Positions 20,735 to 28,508 of a DNA stretch of 64,000 bases are shown in pieces. Every line of letters begins with the position of its first letter. Positions within the stretch are counted from its first letter, which is position 1. Position numbers and translations under genes: made by a program. The stretch lies in contig JAGFBZ010000327.1 of assembly GCA_018398805.1 (NCBI GenBank), positions 277,001 through 341,000 of the forward strand. Reading direction: 5' to 3'. Source of the stretch: Hirundichthys speculiger. Its lineage: Eukaryota; Chordata; Actinopteri; Beloniformes; Exocoetidae. A model generated the notes under the pieces. It searched no databases, was not told the origin of the DNA, and saw nothing but the letters and a program-made list of their open reading frames with translations.

Positions 20735-20917
20735 CTAGGCGAACGCTGACGCGGCCCACTGCTTGACGTCAGTGGGGCATTGTGGGTATTTCTGCAGCGC
20801 CTCCATGATCTGACTGTGGTCCAGCAGCAGCCTCATCAGCTGGAACTCCCTCTGGGTTCTGGAGGACGGCCCGTCCACGGGTCGGATCAGCTCCAGCTGC
20901 TGCAGGTGCTCGAAGGC
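20735..20917 (-). CDS. orc4: orc4 terminal coding exon
   Basis: 60 codons from [20 protein letters not shown], through [20 protein letters not shown], to [19 protein letters not shown] and a TAG. This is the C-terminal winged-helix end. The acceptor reads CCCGCAG. Confidence 0.95.
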
Positions 20918-23900
20918 CTGCGGGCAGAGAGACGGACGGGTTGAGACGTGGACGGACCCGCTGCTGCAGGAGGACGAGGACGAGGACGTCTCACCTTCAT
21001 GACGACGGGCTGCTCGAAGCTGAACATGGAGCTGGACTTCCTGCGCTGGAACTTCTTAAACTCTGAAGGAAGAAGGTCATTTATTTATTTAACAGCATTT
21101 TTAACTCCTTTGATCCTTTTAGTGTCAAAACATCAAAGTCATGTGATCAAAGTGGGTCTGAACCTGATCCTGATCCTGATAGTGACCCCTGACCCCAGCA
21201 AATACAAGTTCATCTGATAGGTTTCCATGGAGATGGGACTGAGGTTCACTGAACAAACCAGACCAGGACCAGAACCAGGACCACGTCCGGAGAAAACCAG
21301 GACCACGTCCGAAGGGAACCAGGACCACGTCCTGAAGGAACCAGGACTACATTTGGAGAAAACCAGGACCATGTCCGGAGGGAACCAGGACTACGTCCGG
21401 AGAAAACCAGGACCACGTCCGGAGGGAACCAGGACCACGTCCTGAAGGAACCAGGACTACATTTAGAGGAGACAAGGACTACGTCCGTAGGGAACCAGGA
21501 CTACATTTGGAGAAAACCAGGACCATGTCCTGAAGGAACCAGGACCATGTCCGGAGGGAACCAGGACCACGTCCGGAGGGAACCAGGACCACGTCCTGAA
21601 GGAACCAGGACTACATTTAGAGGAGACCAGGACTACGTCCGTAGGGAACCAGGACTACATTTGGATAAAACCAGGACCATGTCCGGAGGGAACCAGGACT
21701 ACGTCCGGAGAAAACCAGGACCACGTCCGGAGGGAACCAGGACCACGTCCTGAAGGAACCAGGACTACATTTAGAGGAGACCAGGACTACGTCCGTAGGG
21801 AACCAGGACTACATTTGGAGAAAACCAGGACCATGTCCTGAAGGAACCAGGACCATGTCCGGAGGGAACCAGGACCACGTCCGGAGGGAACCAGGACCAC
21901 GTCCTGAAGGAACCAGGACTACATTTAGAGGAGACCAGGACTACGTCCGTAGGGAACCAGGGAACCAGGACTACATTTGGAGAAAACCAGGACCACGTCC
22001 GGAGGGAACCAGGACTACGTCCGGAGAAAACCAGGACCACGTCCGGAGGGAACCAGGACCACGTCCGGAGGGAACCAGGACTACATTTAGAGGAGACCAG
22101 GACTACGTCCGTAGGGAACCAGGACTACATTTGTAGAAAACCAGGACCAGGTCCGGAGGGAACCAGGACCACGTCCGGAGAAAACCAGGGACCACGTCCG
22201 GAGGAACCAGGACCACGTCCGGAGGGAACCAGGACCACGTCCGGAGGGAACCAGGACCACGTCCGGAAGGAACCAGGACTACATTTAGAGGAGACCAGGA
22301 CTACGTCCGTAGGGAACCAGGACTACATTTGGAGAAAACCAGGACCATGTCCGGAGGGAACCAGGACTACGTCCGGAGAGAAAACCAGGACCACGTCCGG
22401 AGGGAACCAGGACCACGTCCTGAAGGAACCAGGACTACATTTAGAGGAGACCAGGACTACGTCCGTAGGGAACCAGGACTACATTTGGATAAAACCAGGA
22501 CCATGTCCGGAGGTACCCAGGACTACGTCCGGAGAAAACCAGGACCACGTCCGGAGGGAACCAGGACCACGTCCTGAAGGAACCAGGACTACATTTAGAG
22601 GAGACCAGGACTACGTCCGTAGGGAACCAGGACTACATTTGGATAAAACCAGGACCATGTCCGGAGGTACCCAGGACTACGTCCGGAGAAAACCAGGACC
22701 ACGTCCGAAGGGAACCAGGACCACGTCCTGAAGGAACCAGGACTACATTTAGAGGAGACAAGGACTACGTCCGTAGGGAACCAGGACTACATTTGGAGAA
22801 AACCAGGACCATGTCCGGAGGGAACCAGGACTACGTCCGGAGAAAACCAGGACCACGTCCGGAGGGAACCAGGACCACGTCCTGAAGGAACCAGGACTAC
22901 ATTTAGAGGAGACAAGGACTACGTCCGTAGGGAACCAGGACTACATTTGGAGAAAACCAGGACCATGTCCGGAGGGAACCAGGACTACGTCCGGAGGAAA
23001 GGAGGAAAACCAGGACCACGTCCGGAGGGAACCAGGACCACGTCCTGAAGGAACCAGGACTACATTTAGAGGAGACCAGGACTACGTCCGTAGGGAACCA
23101 GGACTACATTTGGAGAAAAAAACCAGGACCATGTCCTGAAGGAAACCAGGACCATGTCCGGAGGGAACCAGGACCACGTCCGGAGGGAACCAGGACCACG
23201 TCCTGAAGGAACCAGGACTACATTTAGAGGAGACCAGGACTACGTCCGTAGGGAACCAGGACTACATTTGGATAAAACCAGGACCATGTCCGGAGGGAAC
23301 CAGGACTACGTCCGGAGAAAACCAGGACCACGTCCGGAGGGAACCAGGACCACGTCCTGAAGGAACCAGGACTACATTTAGAGGAGACCAGGACTACGTC
23401 CGTAGGGAACCAGGACTACATTTGGAGAAAACCAGGACCATGTCCTGAAGGAACCAGGACCATGTCCGGAGGGAACCAGGACCACGTCCGGAGGGAACCA
23501 GGACCACGTCCTGAAGGAACCAGGACTACATTTAGAGGAGACCAGGACTACGTCCGTAGGGAACCAGGACTACATTTGGAGAAAACCAGGACCATGTCCG
23601 GAGGGAACCAGGACTACGTCCGGAGGAAAACCAGGACCACGTCCGGAGGGAACCAGGACCACGTCCTGAAGGAACCAGGACTACATTTAGAGGAGACCAG
23701 GACTACGTCCGTAGGGAACCAGGACTACATTTGTAGAAAACCAGGACCATGTCCGGAGGGAACCAGGACTACGTCCGTAGAAAACCAGGACCACGTCCGG
23801 AGGGAACCAGGACCACGTCCGGAGAAGAACCAGGACCACGTCCGGAGGGAACCAGGACCACGTCCTAAAGGAACCAGGACTACATTTAGAGGAGACCAGG

Positions 23901-26900
23901 ACTACGTCCGTAGGGAACCAGGACTACATTTGGAGAAAACCAGGACCATGTCCGGAGGGAACCAGGACTACGTCCGGAGAAAACCAGGACCACGTCCGGA
24001 GGGAACCAGGACCACGTCCTGAAGGAACCAGGACTACATTTAGAGGAGACCAGGACTACGTCCGTAGGGAACCAGGACTACATTTGGATAAAACCAGGAC
24101 CATGTCCGGAGGTACCCAGGACTACGTCCGGAGAAAACCAGGACCACGTCCGGAGGGAACCAGGACCACGTCCTGAAGGAACCAGGACTACATTTAGAGG
24201 AGACCAGGACTACGTCCGTAGGGAACCAGGACTACATTTGGATAAAACCAGGACCATGTCCGGAGGTACCCAGGACTACGTCCGGAGAAAACCAGGACCA
24301 CGTCCGGAGGGAACCAGGACCACGTCCTGAAGGAACCAGGACTACATTTAGAGGAGACCAGGACTACGTCCGTAGGGAACCAGGACTACATTTGGATAAA
24401 ACCAGGACCATGTCCGGAGGTACCCAGGACTACGTCCGGAGAAAACCAGGGACCACGTCCGGGGGAACCAGGACCACGTCCTGAAGGAACCAGGACTACA
24501 TTTAGAGGGAGACTAGGACTACGTCCGTAGGGAACCAGGACTACATTTGGAGAAAACCAGGACCATGTCCGGAGGGAACCAGGACTACGTCCGGAGAAAA
24601 CCAGGACCACGTCCGGAGGGAACCAGGACCACGTCCTGAAGGAACCAGGACTACATTTAGAGGAGACCAGGACTACGTCCGTAGGGAACCAGGACTACAT
24701 TTGGAGAAAACCAGGACCATGTCCGGAGGTACCCAGGACTACGTCCGGAGAAAACCAGGACCACGTCCGGAGGGAACCAGGACCACGTCCTGAAGGAACC
24801 AGGACTACATTTAGAGGAGACCAGGACTACGTCCGTAGGGAACCAGGACTACATTTGGAGAAAACCAGGACCATGTCCGGAGGTACCCAGGACTACGTCC
24901 GGAGAAAACCAGGACCACGTCCGGAGGGAACCAGGACCACGTCCTGAAGGAACCAGGACTACATTTAGAGGAGACCAGGACTACGTCCGTAGGGAACCAG
25001 GACCAGGTCACCTCACACCCACTGTCCAGCACGGTGGTGGAGGGATGATGGTTTGGCTGTTTTGAAGTCCAGACCAGAGCCGTTCTTGCTGCTGCAGGTG
25101 GATCTAGAAGGTTCCCATCATGATGGTACTTAGTTTCACCCACGTGACTTTAGTCTCTTTTTGGTTTATTTTTAACTAAATGACGGTTCAGTGATTGTAG
25201 TTGTCGGACCCACGATCATCAGATGGGTTTTCTGGTTCTGCACGTCGTACCGTTGTGGACCATCTGGAGGTTGAACGGTTCTCCCTCGTAGACGTCGTTC
25301 AGGTGTTTCATGGCGATGACCAGGCACAGCTCCAGGATGGACAGACCTGTGGAGACCAAGGACAACCTCAGACACCCGTCCTCCTTCAGGTCCTCCAGGT
25401 CCTTCAGGTCCTCCAGGCTGCAGGCCGGCGGCCGTTACCGTGCGGCATGCTAGCGGCTCTTACCATGCAGCGTGCTAGCGGCTCCTACCGTGCAGCGTGC
25501 TAGCGGCTCTTACCGTGTAGCGTGCTAGCGGCTCTAACCGTGCAGCGTGCTAGCGGCTCTTACCGTGCGGTGCGCCGGCGGCTCTTACCGTGCAGCATGC
25601 TAGCGGCTCTTACCGTGCAGCGTGCTAGCGGCTCTTACCGTGCGGTGCGCCGGCGGCTCTTACTGTGCAGCATGCTAGCGGCTCTTACCGTGCAGCGTGC
25701 TAGCGGCTCTTACCGTGCGGTGCGCGGCGGCTCTTACTGTGCAGCGTGCTAGCGGCTCTTACCGTGCAGCGTGCTAGCGGCTCCTACCGTGCAGCGTGCT
25801 AGCGGCTCTTACCGTGTAGCGTGCTAGCGGCTCTAACCGTGCAGCGTGCTAGCGGCTCTTACCATGCGGTGCGCCGGCGGCTCTTACCATGCAGCATGCT
25901 AGCGGCTCTTACCGTGCAGCGTGCTAGCGGCTCTTACCGTGCGGTGCGCCGGCGGCTCTTACTGTGCAGCATGCTAACGGCTCTTACCGTGCAGCGTGCT
26001 AGCGGCTCTTACCGTGCGGTGCGCCGGTGGCTCTTACTGTGCAGCGTGCTAGCGGCTCTTACCGTGCAGCGTGCTAGCGGCTCCTACCGTGCAGCGTGCT
26101 AGCGGCTCTTACCGTGTAGCGTGCTAGCGGCTCTAACCGTGCAGTGTGCTAGCCGCTCCTACCGTGCAGCGTGCTAGCGGCTCTTACCGTGCATCGTGCT
26201 AGCGGCTCTTACCGTGCAGCGTGCTAGCGGCTCTTACAGTGCAGCGTGCTAGCGGCTCTTACCATGTAGCATGCTAGCGGCTCTTACCATGCAGTGTGCT
26301 AGCCGCTCCTACCGTGCAGCGTGCTAGCGGCTCTTACCGTGCAGCATGCTAGCGGCTCTTACAGTGCAGCGTGCTAGCGGCTCTTACCGTGCAGCGTGCT
26401 AGAGGCTCTTACCGTGCGGCATGCTAGCGGCTCCTACCGTGCAGCGTGCTAGCGGCTCTTACCGTGCAGCATGCTGGCGCTGGCGTCGGCGGTACACAGG
26501 CGGCTGGCCTCCAGCAGGTCGGCTGGTCTGATGGCGGGTTTGGCGGCGGTGACGCGGCTGAGACTCAGCATCTGCAGGTTCATTCAGGACGGTTTCAGTC
26601 ACGGCGGCGGTGACGCCGCTACAGAGATCAGAGCGACTAAAACTCACCAGCAGCGCGTTCAACGAGCCGAAGTCTTGTTGGAGTTAAAGTGTCTCTGCAG
26701 AACCTCCTGAACGGATCCGTCCTCAACGAGAGACTGAAGACAAGAAGACATTTAAACACAAGAGAGAGAGAAAAAAATGTTTCACCTCGTTGGTTTTTAC
26801 ATAAAAACGGGTCCAAACGGGCCTGAAACAGACGTGAAACCAACACCTGAACACCGGCGTTCCCACTCGTCAGCGAACTTCCTGTCGGGGAAACCGTCCG

Positions 26901-28508
26901 GCAGGCGGAGCTGCGCCGCGACCCGGTCCAGGTACTGGGGGAACGTCAGGCTGCTCAGCAGGTGGATCTGACGGTGGGAGAACCGAGACTTGACCCGCTT
27001 CTCCAGCAGCTCCAGAACGTCCTGGAGGGAACCGACGCAGCATTCAGCTCTGACCCCTGACCCATGACCTTTGACCTGACCTCTGACCCCTGACCTCTGA
27101 CCCCTGTTCCCTGTTAACGGAGCAGGAAGAGGCTTTACCAGTCTGCAGGTGAGGCCGACCACGGCGACGGGCGTCTGGGCCGACTGGGACACGTCCAGCA
27201 GGTTGTAGAGCAGCGTCTGGTTCCGGTGGTGGGCGAACAGGTCCAACTCGTCCAGGACGAACAGAACCGGGCGGCTGCTGCTGCGGTCGCCTTGACGGGA
27301 GCAGAAACACCAGTCAGCCACTGAAGCACCTGCTCAGAACCACAGCCACCTCTGACCCGGTTCTGACCCGGTTCGGACCCGGTTCGGACCCGGTTCTGAC
27401 CTTTCTTTAGGGCCTCCAGCAGAAACGCCAGGTTCTCAGCGAAGCTTCCCTGAAACAGACGTGAGCAGGTTTTAATTGCAGTTTCATCACAGAAACTTTC
27501 ATCTAAACTTCTTCTACTTACAAACACTTTATCACCAACAACGTTCTCCAGGTGCAGCTGCCTGGTTATTTCCTTTAAGGCCACTTTGTCGTCCGTCTGC
27601 AGGAGTCCTGCAGCCAGCAGAGCACAGGTGCAGGTGAATACAGGTGCAGGTAAATACAGGTGCAGGTGAATACAGGTGCAGGTGAATACAGGTGCAGGTG
27701 AATACAGGTGCAGGTGAATACAGGTGCAGGTGAATACCTGAACCTGAACCCGACCAGCTCAGAACCGAGGGAGCGTTCAGAGATTACCGTTGAGATGGAC
27801 CTGCAGCAGAGTTTTCTGGACGTCTGCGTCCTCCAGCAGCTCCCTCAGAACACACCTGAGCAGCTGCAACACAGCAGACGCCATCAAGGCTTCGTCCCGT
27901 CAACCCTCCGGCCCGGTTTAAGCCCTCAGAACCTCACCGTGGTCTTCCCCGCTCCTCTCGGGCCGACGATCAGGACCGAGTTGCTCTCCCCGTGGACGGC
28001 CGTTCGCCTCAGCAGCTCCAGCAGATGTCTGGAGAAACGAGCACGAATCAGACTGGGACGGTTCTGTCAGCCAGCTGGGACGGTTCTGTCAGCCAGCTGG
28101 GCCTGAACCGGGTCAGTGGGTTCCGGTTAATACTGCTTCTCTTATCTGGAGCTTCAGGCTGCTTCAGGACAGCAGCATCATTTGAAGACATTTTGTTCCA
28201 TCTTTGTCCTTTTTTTTCCCATTTCAATCATTTTTGGATCAAATTTAAGTCTTCAGTCAAATAAAACTCTTAACTCTAAATTCCTCCACACACCTGTGTT
28301 GAGCTTCGACCCCGTCGGGTTGTCAGGAAGTCTCTGATGGCAAAACCGCTCCCGTAAAATCTGCTGAACCTGCAAATAAACTTCAAATATAACTTCAAAT
28401 GGAAAGAAAATCACCTGGCCAGGTAAGAGAGAGGCTGTTTTTGGAACAAACCTGAGTGATGCAGTCTGGGACAGACAGGTGAACGTCCTTCACCTTCCTG
28501 TGACTCAT
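20735..28508 (-). CDS. orc4: Origin recognition complex subunit 4 (13 coding exons)
   Basis: AAA+ family subunit of the nuclear origin recognition complex, which marks replication origins and helps load MCM2-7. Coding exons on the minus strand: 28508-28452, 28369-28294, 28028-27938, 27863-27788, 27607-27522, 27449-27401, 27290-27139, 27021-about 26847, 26733-26648, 26571-26463, 25346-25251, 21062-20995, 20917-20735. Together they give about 434 residues, against 436 in human ORC4. Walker A GPRGAGKT falls at residues 67-74 and the Walker B stretch [10 protein letters not shown] at about 155-164, followed by the phrases GLTCRL and [13 protein letters not shown] and a winged-helix C-terminal part. 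The start ATG gives [10 protein letters not shown]. Odd: a one-base deletion in the 26733-26648 exon, and phase mismatches of one base at two other junctions, break the literal frame. Two introns are almost entirely minisatellite. Confidence 0.95.
20995..21062 (-). CDS. orc4: orc4 exon 12
   Basis: Encodes [20 protein letters not shown] then MK, matching the human NEFQKFVQRK...FEKPVVMK segment. Two leading bases complete a glutamate codon split with the exon at 25251. Donor AAG|GTGAGA. Confidence 0.93.
21285..25012. repeat. 22-base minisatellite with higher-order blocks, 3.7 kb
   Basis: Roughly 170 copies of 22-base units with core GGACCACGTCCGGAGGGAAC and several fixed variants (ACTACATTTAGAGGAGACC, ACCATGTCCGGAGG). 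The variants recur in the same order every seven or so units (about 154 bases), so whole blocks have been copied repeatedly. It fills nearly all of the 4.2 kb intron between the last-but-two and last-but-one orc4 coding exons. Open frames of 60-190 codons are artefacts. Confidence 0.96.
25016..25066 (+). mobile_element. Tc1-type transposase scrap
   Basis: Contains CAGCACGGTGGTGGAGGGAT directly followed by GATGGTTTGG, the nucleotide version of the KHGGGxxMVW motif of Tc1 transposases. It abuts the end of the 22-base array. Too short to place in a subfamily. The next 180 bases show nothing. Confidence 0.6.
25251..25346 (-). CDS. orc4: orc4 exon 11
   Basis: Encodes [20 protein letters not shown] then [11 protein letters not shown], very close to human [20 protein letters not shown]. 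It starts with GT completing a glycine begun at 26463 and ends with G of the next glutamate. Confidence 0.96.
25431..26462 (-). repeat. 25-base minisatellite made of orc4 5' splice-site copies
   Basis: About 41 tandem copies of a 25-base unit. Read on the minus strand the unit is GCTGCACGGTAAGAGCCGCT plus AGCAC/AGCAT, which repeats the last bases of the orc4 exon at 26463 (...AGCATGCTGCACG) and the start of its intron (GTAAGAGC). The array starts without a gap at the genuine donor and runs to within about 85 bases of the next exon. Most units keep GTAAG; others have GTAGG or GTTAG. Confidence 0.95.
26463..26571 (-). CDS. orc4: orc4 exon 10
   Basis: Encodes [36 protein letters not shown] and the first base of a glycine codon. 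Matches human MLALNRVTAS...[20 protein letters not shown]. Its donor CACG|GTAAGAG is the template of the neighbouring 25-base array. Confidence 0.95.
26648..26733 (-). CDS. orc4: orc4 exon 9, one-base deletion
   Basis: Reads [20 protein letters not shown] in one frame and DFGSLNALL in another. The sequence AACAAGACTTCGG (about 26667-26680 on the minus strand) lacks one base relative to AACAAGGACTTCGG. With the base the exon is 87 bases and in phase at both ends; as written it hits a TGA. Confidence 0.9.
26847..27021 (-). CDS. orc4: orc4 exon 8 (3' edge uncertain)
   Basis: Encodes [20 protein letters not shown] then [35 protein letters not shown]. Two donors are possible, at 26854 (CCG|GTGTTC) or 26846 (CAG|GTGTTG); the second gives the family's length, but neither gives phase 0, which the next exon needs, so another one-base indel is suspected. 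Confidence 0.88.
27139..27290 (-). CDS. orc4: orc4 exon 7: Walker B
   Basis: Encodes [40 protein letters not shown] and [16 protein letters not shown] is the Walker B motif of the AAA+ fold. Two leading bases complete a glycine codon from exon 6. Confidence 0.96.
27401..27449 (-). CDS. orc4: orc4 exon 6 (49 bases)
   Basis: A very short exon encoding [16 protein letters not shown] plus one base. Acceptor TTTCAG, donor AAAG|GTCAGA. Confidence 0.93.
27522..27607 (-). CDS. orc4: orc4 exon 5
   Basis: Encodes [20 protein letters not shown] then NVVGDKVF, nearly identical to human [20 protein letters not shown]. Donor TTT|GTAAGT. Confidence 0.95.
27630..27738. repeat. 16-base tandem repeat CAGGTGCAGGTGAATA
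   Basis: Seven copies in a short orc4 intron, one variant with GTAAATA. Confidence 0.95.
27788..27863 (-). CDS. orc4: orc4 exon 4
   Basis: Encodes [20 protein letters not shown] then QVHLN plus one base, corresponding to human [20 protein letters not shown]...QVHLNG. Confidence 0.92.
27938..28028 (-). CDS. orc4: orc4 exon 3: Walker A
   Basis: Encodes [20 protein letters not shown] then [18 protein letters not shown] is the ATP-binding Walker A motif. The exon starts with the last base of a split codon, while the preceding exon ends one base short of the phase needed. Confidence 0.95.
28294..28369 (-). CDS. orc4: orc4 exon 2
   Basis: Encodes [20 protein letters not shown] then SKLNT, matching human VQRILRERFCRQ. 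It ends at ACAG|GTGTGT in phase 1, while the next exon expects phase 2, so a single base seems to be missing at or near this end. Confidence 0.88.

Follow-up and report, generated by a model that had tools for sequence, protein, structure and literature searches.

Intron 10 of the orc4 gene of Hirundichthys speculiger consists largely of a 25-base minisatellite whose unit is a copy of the exon 10/intron 10 junction itself, so that 42 potential 5' splice sites follow one another in register. The gene lies within a 64,000-nucleotide (nt) stretch of contig JAGFBZ010000327.1 (assembly GCA_018398805.1, positions 277,001 to 341,000), which was analysed as a whole and is called the window here. We consider the array likely to be a nearly neutral minisatellite of the type named 'mirages', a term reported for tandem repeats of exon-intron boundaries in the Adh3 and globin genes of amphioxus (PMC3087553). 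Its anatomy and growth, as described below, were read from one assembly of one species. Coordinates of the features are collected in Table 1.

Anatomy and origin of the intron 10 array

The minisatellite was described by Tandem Repeats Finder (TRF) as having a period of 25, 42.1 copies and 86% matches, and it could be cut into 42 units, of which unit 30 (starting at 25748) has 24 bases and the other 41 have 25. The minus-strand consensus of the 25-base unit, CACGCTGCACGGTAAGAGCCGCTAG, is composed of the last 17 bases of exon 10 and the first 8 bases of intron 10. A preliminary description of this DNA had proposed that the array derives from the gene's own 5' splice site, naming the alignment of the exon end with the unit as the point at which this origin might fail; in register, 16 of the 17 exon bases proved equal to the unit, a value reached by none of 200,000 shuffled exon ends, and the proposed origin is upheld. 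The same description had placed the start of the array exactly at the donor, whereas the array straddles the splice site and begins 17 bases inside exon 10. All 22 occurrences of the 15-mer GGTAAGAGCCGCTAG in the 1.04 Gb assembly fall within this array.

Table 1. Positions in the window of orc4 and of the features associated with its donor-anchored arrays
Feature	Position	Strand	Basis
25-base minisatellite, 42 units	25428..26479	-	TRF, unit table, 3-unit and 12-unit higher-order periods
Authentic exon 10 5' splice site ACG/GTAAGA, GT at 26462-26461	26457..26465	-	8.62 bits
orc4 intron 10, 1116 nt; array throughout except last 81 nt	25347..26462	-	exon/intron map
orc4 exon 10, 109 nt, donor exon, ending ...AGC ATG CTG CAC G	26463..26571	-	ORC4 chain match from residue 284; AG and GT at flanks
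orc4 exon 11	25251..25346	-	ORC4 chain match together with exon 10
orc4 gene, 13 coding exons, ATG to TAG	20735..28508	-	exon table, AG/GT at all 12 introns
Second, smaller donor-anchored array, orc4 intron 6, 11-base unit, 4.6 copies	27351..27401	-	TRF; start is the last exon base of AAAG/GTCAGA

The direction of copying can be deduced from the ORC4 proteins of other fish. A search returned 2036 homologues, and the residue counts given here are from the best 120, which are from other species and in many cases gene predictions; the best of these 120 is 84% identical, and those named to species are all ray-finned fish, none of them a close relative of the fish studied here. Each of the four residues at the junction is the commonest at its position (M in 78, L in 119, H in 116 and G in all 120), and because M-L-H-G is thus the usual sequence in the listed fish, the exon 10 end is old and the array was copied from the exon, not the reverse. 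None of the 120 listed proteins has an insertion at the exon 10/11 junction.

The 42 units fall into 22 types, which are arranged in an ordered manner. Units 12 positions apart differ by a mean of 1.93 mismatches (11 of 30 pairs identical) and units three positions apart by 2.28, whereas lags that are not multiples of 3 give means of 3.1 to 3.7. We read these 3- and 12-unit periods as probable traces of block-wise unequal exchange or slippage, and copy number is likely to be polymorphic between individuals. The most diverged unit is the last one (6 of 25 bases, compared with at most 4 elsewhere), which fits the expectation for an array edge. That the array, or at least its length, is an artefact of assembly is highly unlikely: one-base errors are seemingly present in the contig and one unit lacks a base, but the higher-order structure and the 22 unit types are unlike a simple assembly stutter, and other contigs also hold tandem arrays.

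The array probably arose from a short tandem duplication that by chance spanned the exon 10/intron 10 junction. Expansion through unequal exchange or slippage, in part by blocks of 3 and 12 units, would then have lengthened intron 10 from roughly 92 nt to 1116 nt, while gain or loss of whole units would have kept an intact exon end and GT at the first position. Because every unit carries the junction in register, such an array would be nearly invisible to selection, which would account for its persistence.

Donor sites in the array and their predicted use

Scored with a vertebrate donor matrix, the authentic exon 10 donor is the fifth highest among the 12 donors of orc4. The GT is kept in all 42 units, the authentic 9-mer ACGGTAAGA is found in 21 of them, and 26 equal or exceed the authentic site in score, the first unit being counted in both cases. 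In the window as a whole, only 31 of the 3616 GTs on the minus strand reach the score of the authentic donor, the array's own included.

Use of any later donor would bring a stop codon into the message. An in-frame TAG had been noted in the first unit, and it is indeed present: the read-through, computed for donors 2, 3, 4, 11 and 42, is ...MLHGKSR followed by the stop, and since the TAG sits in the first unit, all other later donors lead to the identical TAG. The last whole codon of exon 10 is H320 of 435, and the product is predicted to be about 324 of 435 residues long irrespective of which later donor is used; the length of the array would change the frequency of truncation, not the product. 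Nonsense-mediated decay would be expected to remove transcripts of this kind. The retained lengths had been given as multiples of 25, which holds for the donors before the 24-base unit (25k), but beyond it the lengths become 25k-1, with 1024 for the last donor.

Intron size does not separate these donors. From the donor of the last unit (25438) to the acceptor there remains an intron of 92 nt (25438-25347), inside the range of 72-113 nt of the six array-free introns of orc4. A minimum intron size of 65-78 nt has been reported for higher eukaryotes, yet with no universal threshold (PMC3223203), and because even the last donor leaves 92 nt, size rules out none of the 42. An effect of size on splicing is reported in the same paper for an intron repeat of dog LHX3 (PMC3223203).

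In the nearly neutral array that we favour, the first donor would most likely be used in most transcripts, through exon definition of the 109-nt exon 10, and occasional use of a later donor would give one common truncated frame, with a stop soon after exon 10, followed by decay. Two points weigh against this expectation. The intron-proximal one of two comparable donors is reported to be favoured, for reasons called unknown (PMC6002489), and this preference therefore predicts use of late donors rather than the first; in addition, the first donor is matched or exceeded in score within the array, in which 26 of 42 sites, itself included, are at least as strong. Both preferences are reported to occur among human alternative donors (PMC2423196).

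The later donors might also compete for U1 and the spliceosome, in which case a longer array would leave less full-length orc4 mRNA. Such a length-dependent brake would be consistent with the 26 strong donors and the rarity of equally strong GTs in the window, with the in-frame TAG brought in by any later donor, with the reported intron-proximal preference (PMC6002489), and with the human IFI6 minisatellite, which is reported to supply donors that are used (PMC4526556). We think it improbable, however. The authors of the amphioxus work report data that suggest no interference of mirages with regular splicing (PMC3087553); the reported footprint of U1, 23 + 12 nt (PMC6002489), is larger than the 25-nt spacing, so that U1 could occupy no more than roughly half of the sites (21) at once; and the donor 9-mer shows no clear excess of conservation over the remainder of the unit, near-fixed columns (the same letter in 41 or all 42 units) making up 5 of 9 within it and 7 of 16 outside. 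Given the many strong donors, a brake on orc4 or a sink for U1 is possible, but this is a guess.

The main value of the locus may lie in its being a natural 42-donor ladder for splice-site choice. One exon in one transcript is served by 42 donors, which are in register, share an identical 9-mer in 21 cases and are spaced below the quoted U1 footprint. Donor use at orc4 would pit exon definition, which points to the first donor, against intron-proximal preference, which points to the last ones, and it would also reveal how a minisatellite-filled gene keeps its splicing correct.

The coding exon, the gene and the genome

Residues 315 and 317 of ORC4, encoded within 26463-26481 of the minus strand, are both S, each encoded by AGC in agreement with the array.

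Homogenisation of the array may have reached into exon 10 and altered ORC4 (K315S and N317S), a process that would be additional to, and not exclusive of, a nearly neutral array; we regard it as doubtful. Both residues are rare, with S at 315 in one of the 120 listed fish (K in 101) and S at 317 in two (N in 117), and the likeness of exon 10 to the unit grows to 19 exon bases if one gap is allowed. Moreover, exon 10 has two of the protein's 14 rare residues in its final six complete codons. Drawn from 432 residues, this gives P = 0.014, but the value is post hoc, and the pool may be smaller, because rarity was scored only where at least 100 sequences were aligned. Austrofundulus and Nematolebias, among the listed fish, likewise have S at 317, and the data are equally explained by copying of the array from an exon that already carried the AGC codons. 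A combination, in which the 42 donors compete, the fraction of productive orc4 mRNA depends on the length of the array and homogenisation rewrites the exon end (K315S, N317S), is very improbable; if true, changes in the protein sequence of an essential replication factor would be driven by a noncoding minisatellite.

The exon ends of orc4 were chosen by eye. The translation of exons 10 and 11 matched the solved ORC4 chains 7cte_D and 5uj7_C, which we take to be human (E = 4.1e-25), and a search of the 1.04 Gb assembly with these two exons (68 amino acids) returned a single locus, orc4 itself. Three one-base frame breaks were observed on the minus strand, in exons 2 (28369-28294), 8 (27021-26847) and 9 (26733-26648). 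The simplest reading is that they are sequence errors in the assembly, because the search with exons 10-11 showed no second copy of orc4 and the rest of the gene is undamaged. The breaks could also mark the locus as a decaying copy, in which the array would be inconsequential, but this is very unlikely: besides the lack of a second locus in the search with exons 10-11, GT and AG are kept at all 12 introns, no break interrupts the other ten exons, the translation, with X placed at each frame break, can be aligned along its full length (100%) with fish ORC4 (84% identity to the best listed), and ORC4 is an essential replication protein, whereas one-base slips are more simply explained as sequence errors in an assembly of 3002 contigs.

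Tandem repeats are found by TRF in six of the 12 introns of orc4, and donor-anchored arrays in two, introns 6 and 10. The array in intron 6 contains five copies of GGTC[AC]GA, three of which keep GGTCAGA. Most of intron 11 is occupied by a 3.7-kb minisatellite (21272-25009) with periods of 22, 44 and 154 bases.

Tandem repeats (period at least 7, score at least 100) make up 38.9% of the window, compared with 0 to 75% of 18 stretches from other contigs, 9 of which have 0.0%. In this 236 kb sample of the window and the 18 stretches, donor-like units were not in excess: they were present in 4 of 138 array-strands (69 arrays, that of orc4 included), against 4.5 expected after base-wise shuffling of the units. 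Across the genome, closely spaced runs of three GGTAAG were counted 1227 times and the reversed pattern 4136 times, the latter being a rough control in which the base order differs between the patterns. A genome-wide habit of forming arrays from donors is unsupported by both counts, and the general abundance of arrays accounts for that of arrays with donor motifs. The same counts could favour chance alone, in that some array in so minisatellite-rich a genome must touch a donor and its likeness to the junction would be incidental. The probability of this is extremely small, given an in-register match that no shuffled exon end attained; chance may explain that a junction was hit, but not why the unit equals the junction.

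At 20 AAA-domain loci, no listed array (2.5 or more copies of a period of 7 or more) starts within 300 nt after the matched stretch, which is a domain match and not a mapped exon end, and these loci are too few for a rate. Two observations were made elsewhere in the survey: the unit of an array at G000:C28:1157483-1157641 (minus strand) holds a strong donor, CAGGTAAGT, together with an acceptor-like pyrimidine-CACAG, giving a string of mini-intron look-alikes, and another 25-base array, at G000:C66:70056-70661 (plus strand), has units with the donor-like GGTAAGTC.

Other candidate explanations and genes were rejected or gave no result. A structured RNA is not indicated, since the segment 26300-26571 (exon 10 and the first units) folds worse than its dinucleotide shuffles (z = +3.3), all 200 of which fold at least equally well, and no Rfam family attained its gathering score over 24500-27500. 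Recursive splicing through AG/GT joints was discarded, AGGT being absent from the array. In a Pfam search for other genes, none of the 10 open reading frames scanned, from 126 in the window, was matched.

Comparison with known repeated splice sites

Tandem copying of a functional splice site had been thought undescribed in the preliminary description, but both the amphioxus mirages (PMC3087553) and the IFI6 minisatellite (PMC4526556) have been published. The orc4 array is a striking new example of a described kind, not a new kind. In the open-licence literature searched, by titles and the starts of abstracts, there was no report of such an array for ORC4 and nothing closer on competing or repeated donors. 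Three papers were considered and set aside: one on a CTNS minisatellite, which deals with an intron 7 marker and in its available text describes no copied donor; one on C. elegans minisatellites, which as far as available concerns regulatory motifs and not copied donors; and one on fish intron insertion (PMC3151243), whose available text likewise describes no copied donor.

Several known systems share parts of this structure. Introns of fish lengthened by tandem copies, like that of orc4, are reported in the GH introns and MSTN-2 intron 1 of gilthead sea bream (PMC3045353); the MSTN-2 repeat occupies the 5' end of its intron and has segregating alleles, but, unlike in orc4, the available text makes no mention of exon bases or a donor within the repeats. 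Intron gain by tandem genomic duplication (PMC4974935) resembles the orc4 case in that duplication is reported to underlie a new splicing structure; in orc4, however, an existing intron has been lengthened and no new intron is seen, the array lying within a single GT-AG intron and leaving the last 81 nt of it free. Closer still is the human 6-16 (IFI6) minisatellite; by the title of their 1995 paper, Turri, Cuin and Porter reported that it provides several splice donors. In both IFI6 and orc4, tandem units are capable of acting as donors for one exon. Three mRNAs are reported for IFI6, owing to the use of two downstream units (PMC4526556), whereas in orc4 every later donor adds a stop codon.

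The amphioxus mirages have the most in common with the orc4 array, namely units that span an exon-intron boundary (PMC3087553). The orc4 units do so with 17 exon and 8 intron bases, they keep the splice signal (GT in 42 of 42, with 26 at or above the authentic score), and they are of minisatellite scale, 25 bp being within the 10-72 bp given for the Adh3 units (PMC3087553). In BflGb9 a 3' exon boundary is reported to be duplicated, as in orc4, but in a 157-bp unit, whereas in BflGb6 the acceptor side is repeated, in 3 and 6 units of 150-160 bp, and orc4 repeats the donor side (PMC3087553). Instability in length and in somatic tissue, together with normal splicing, is reported for the amphioxus mirages (PMC3087553). 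In orc4, of which one assembly was read, the 3- and 12-unit periods suggest earlier duplication of blocks. With 42 short, near-identical units, each with its GT, orc4 adds a fish case to the arrays described in lancelets.
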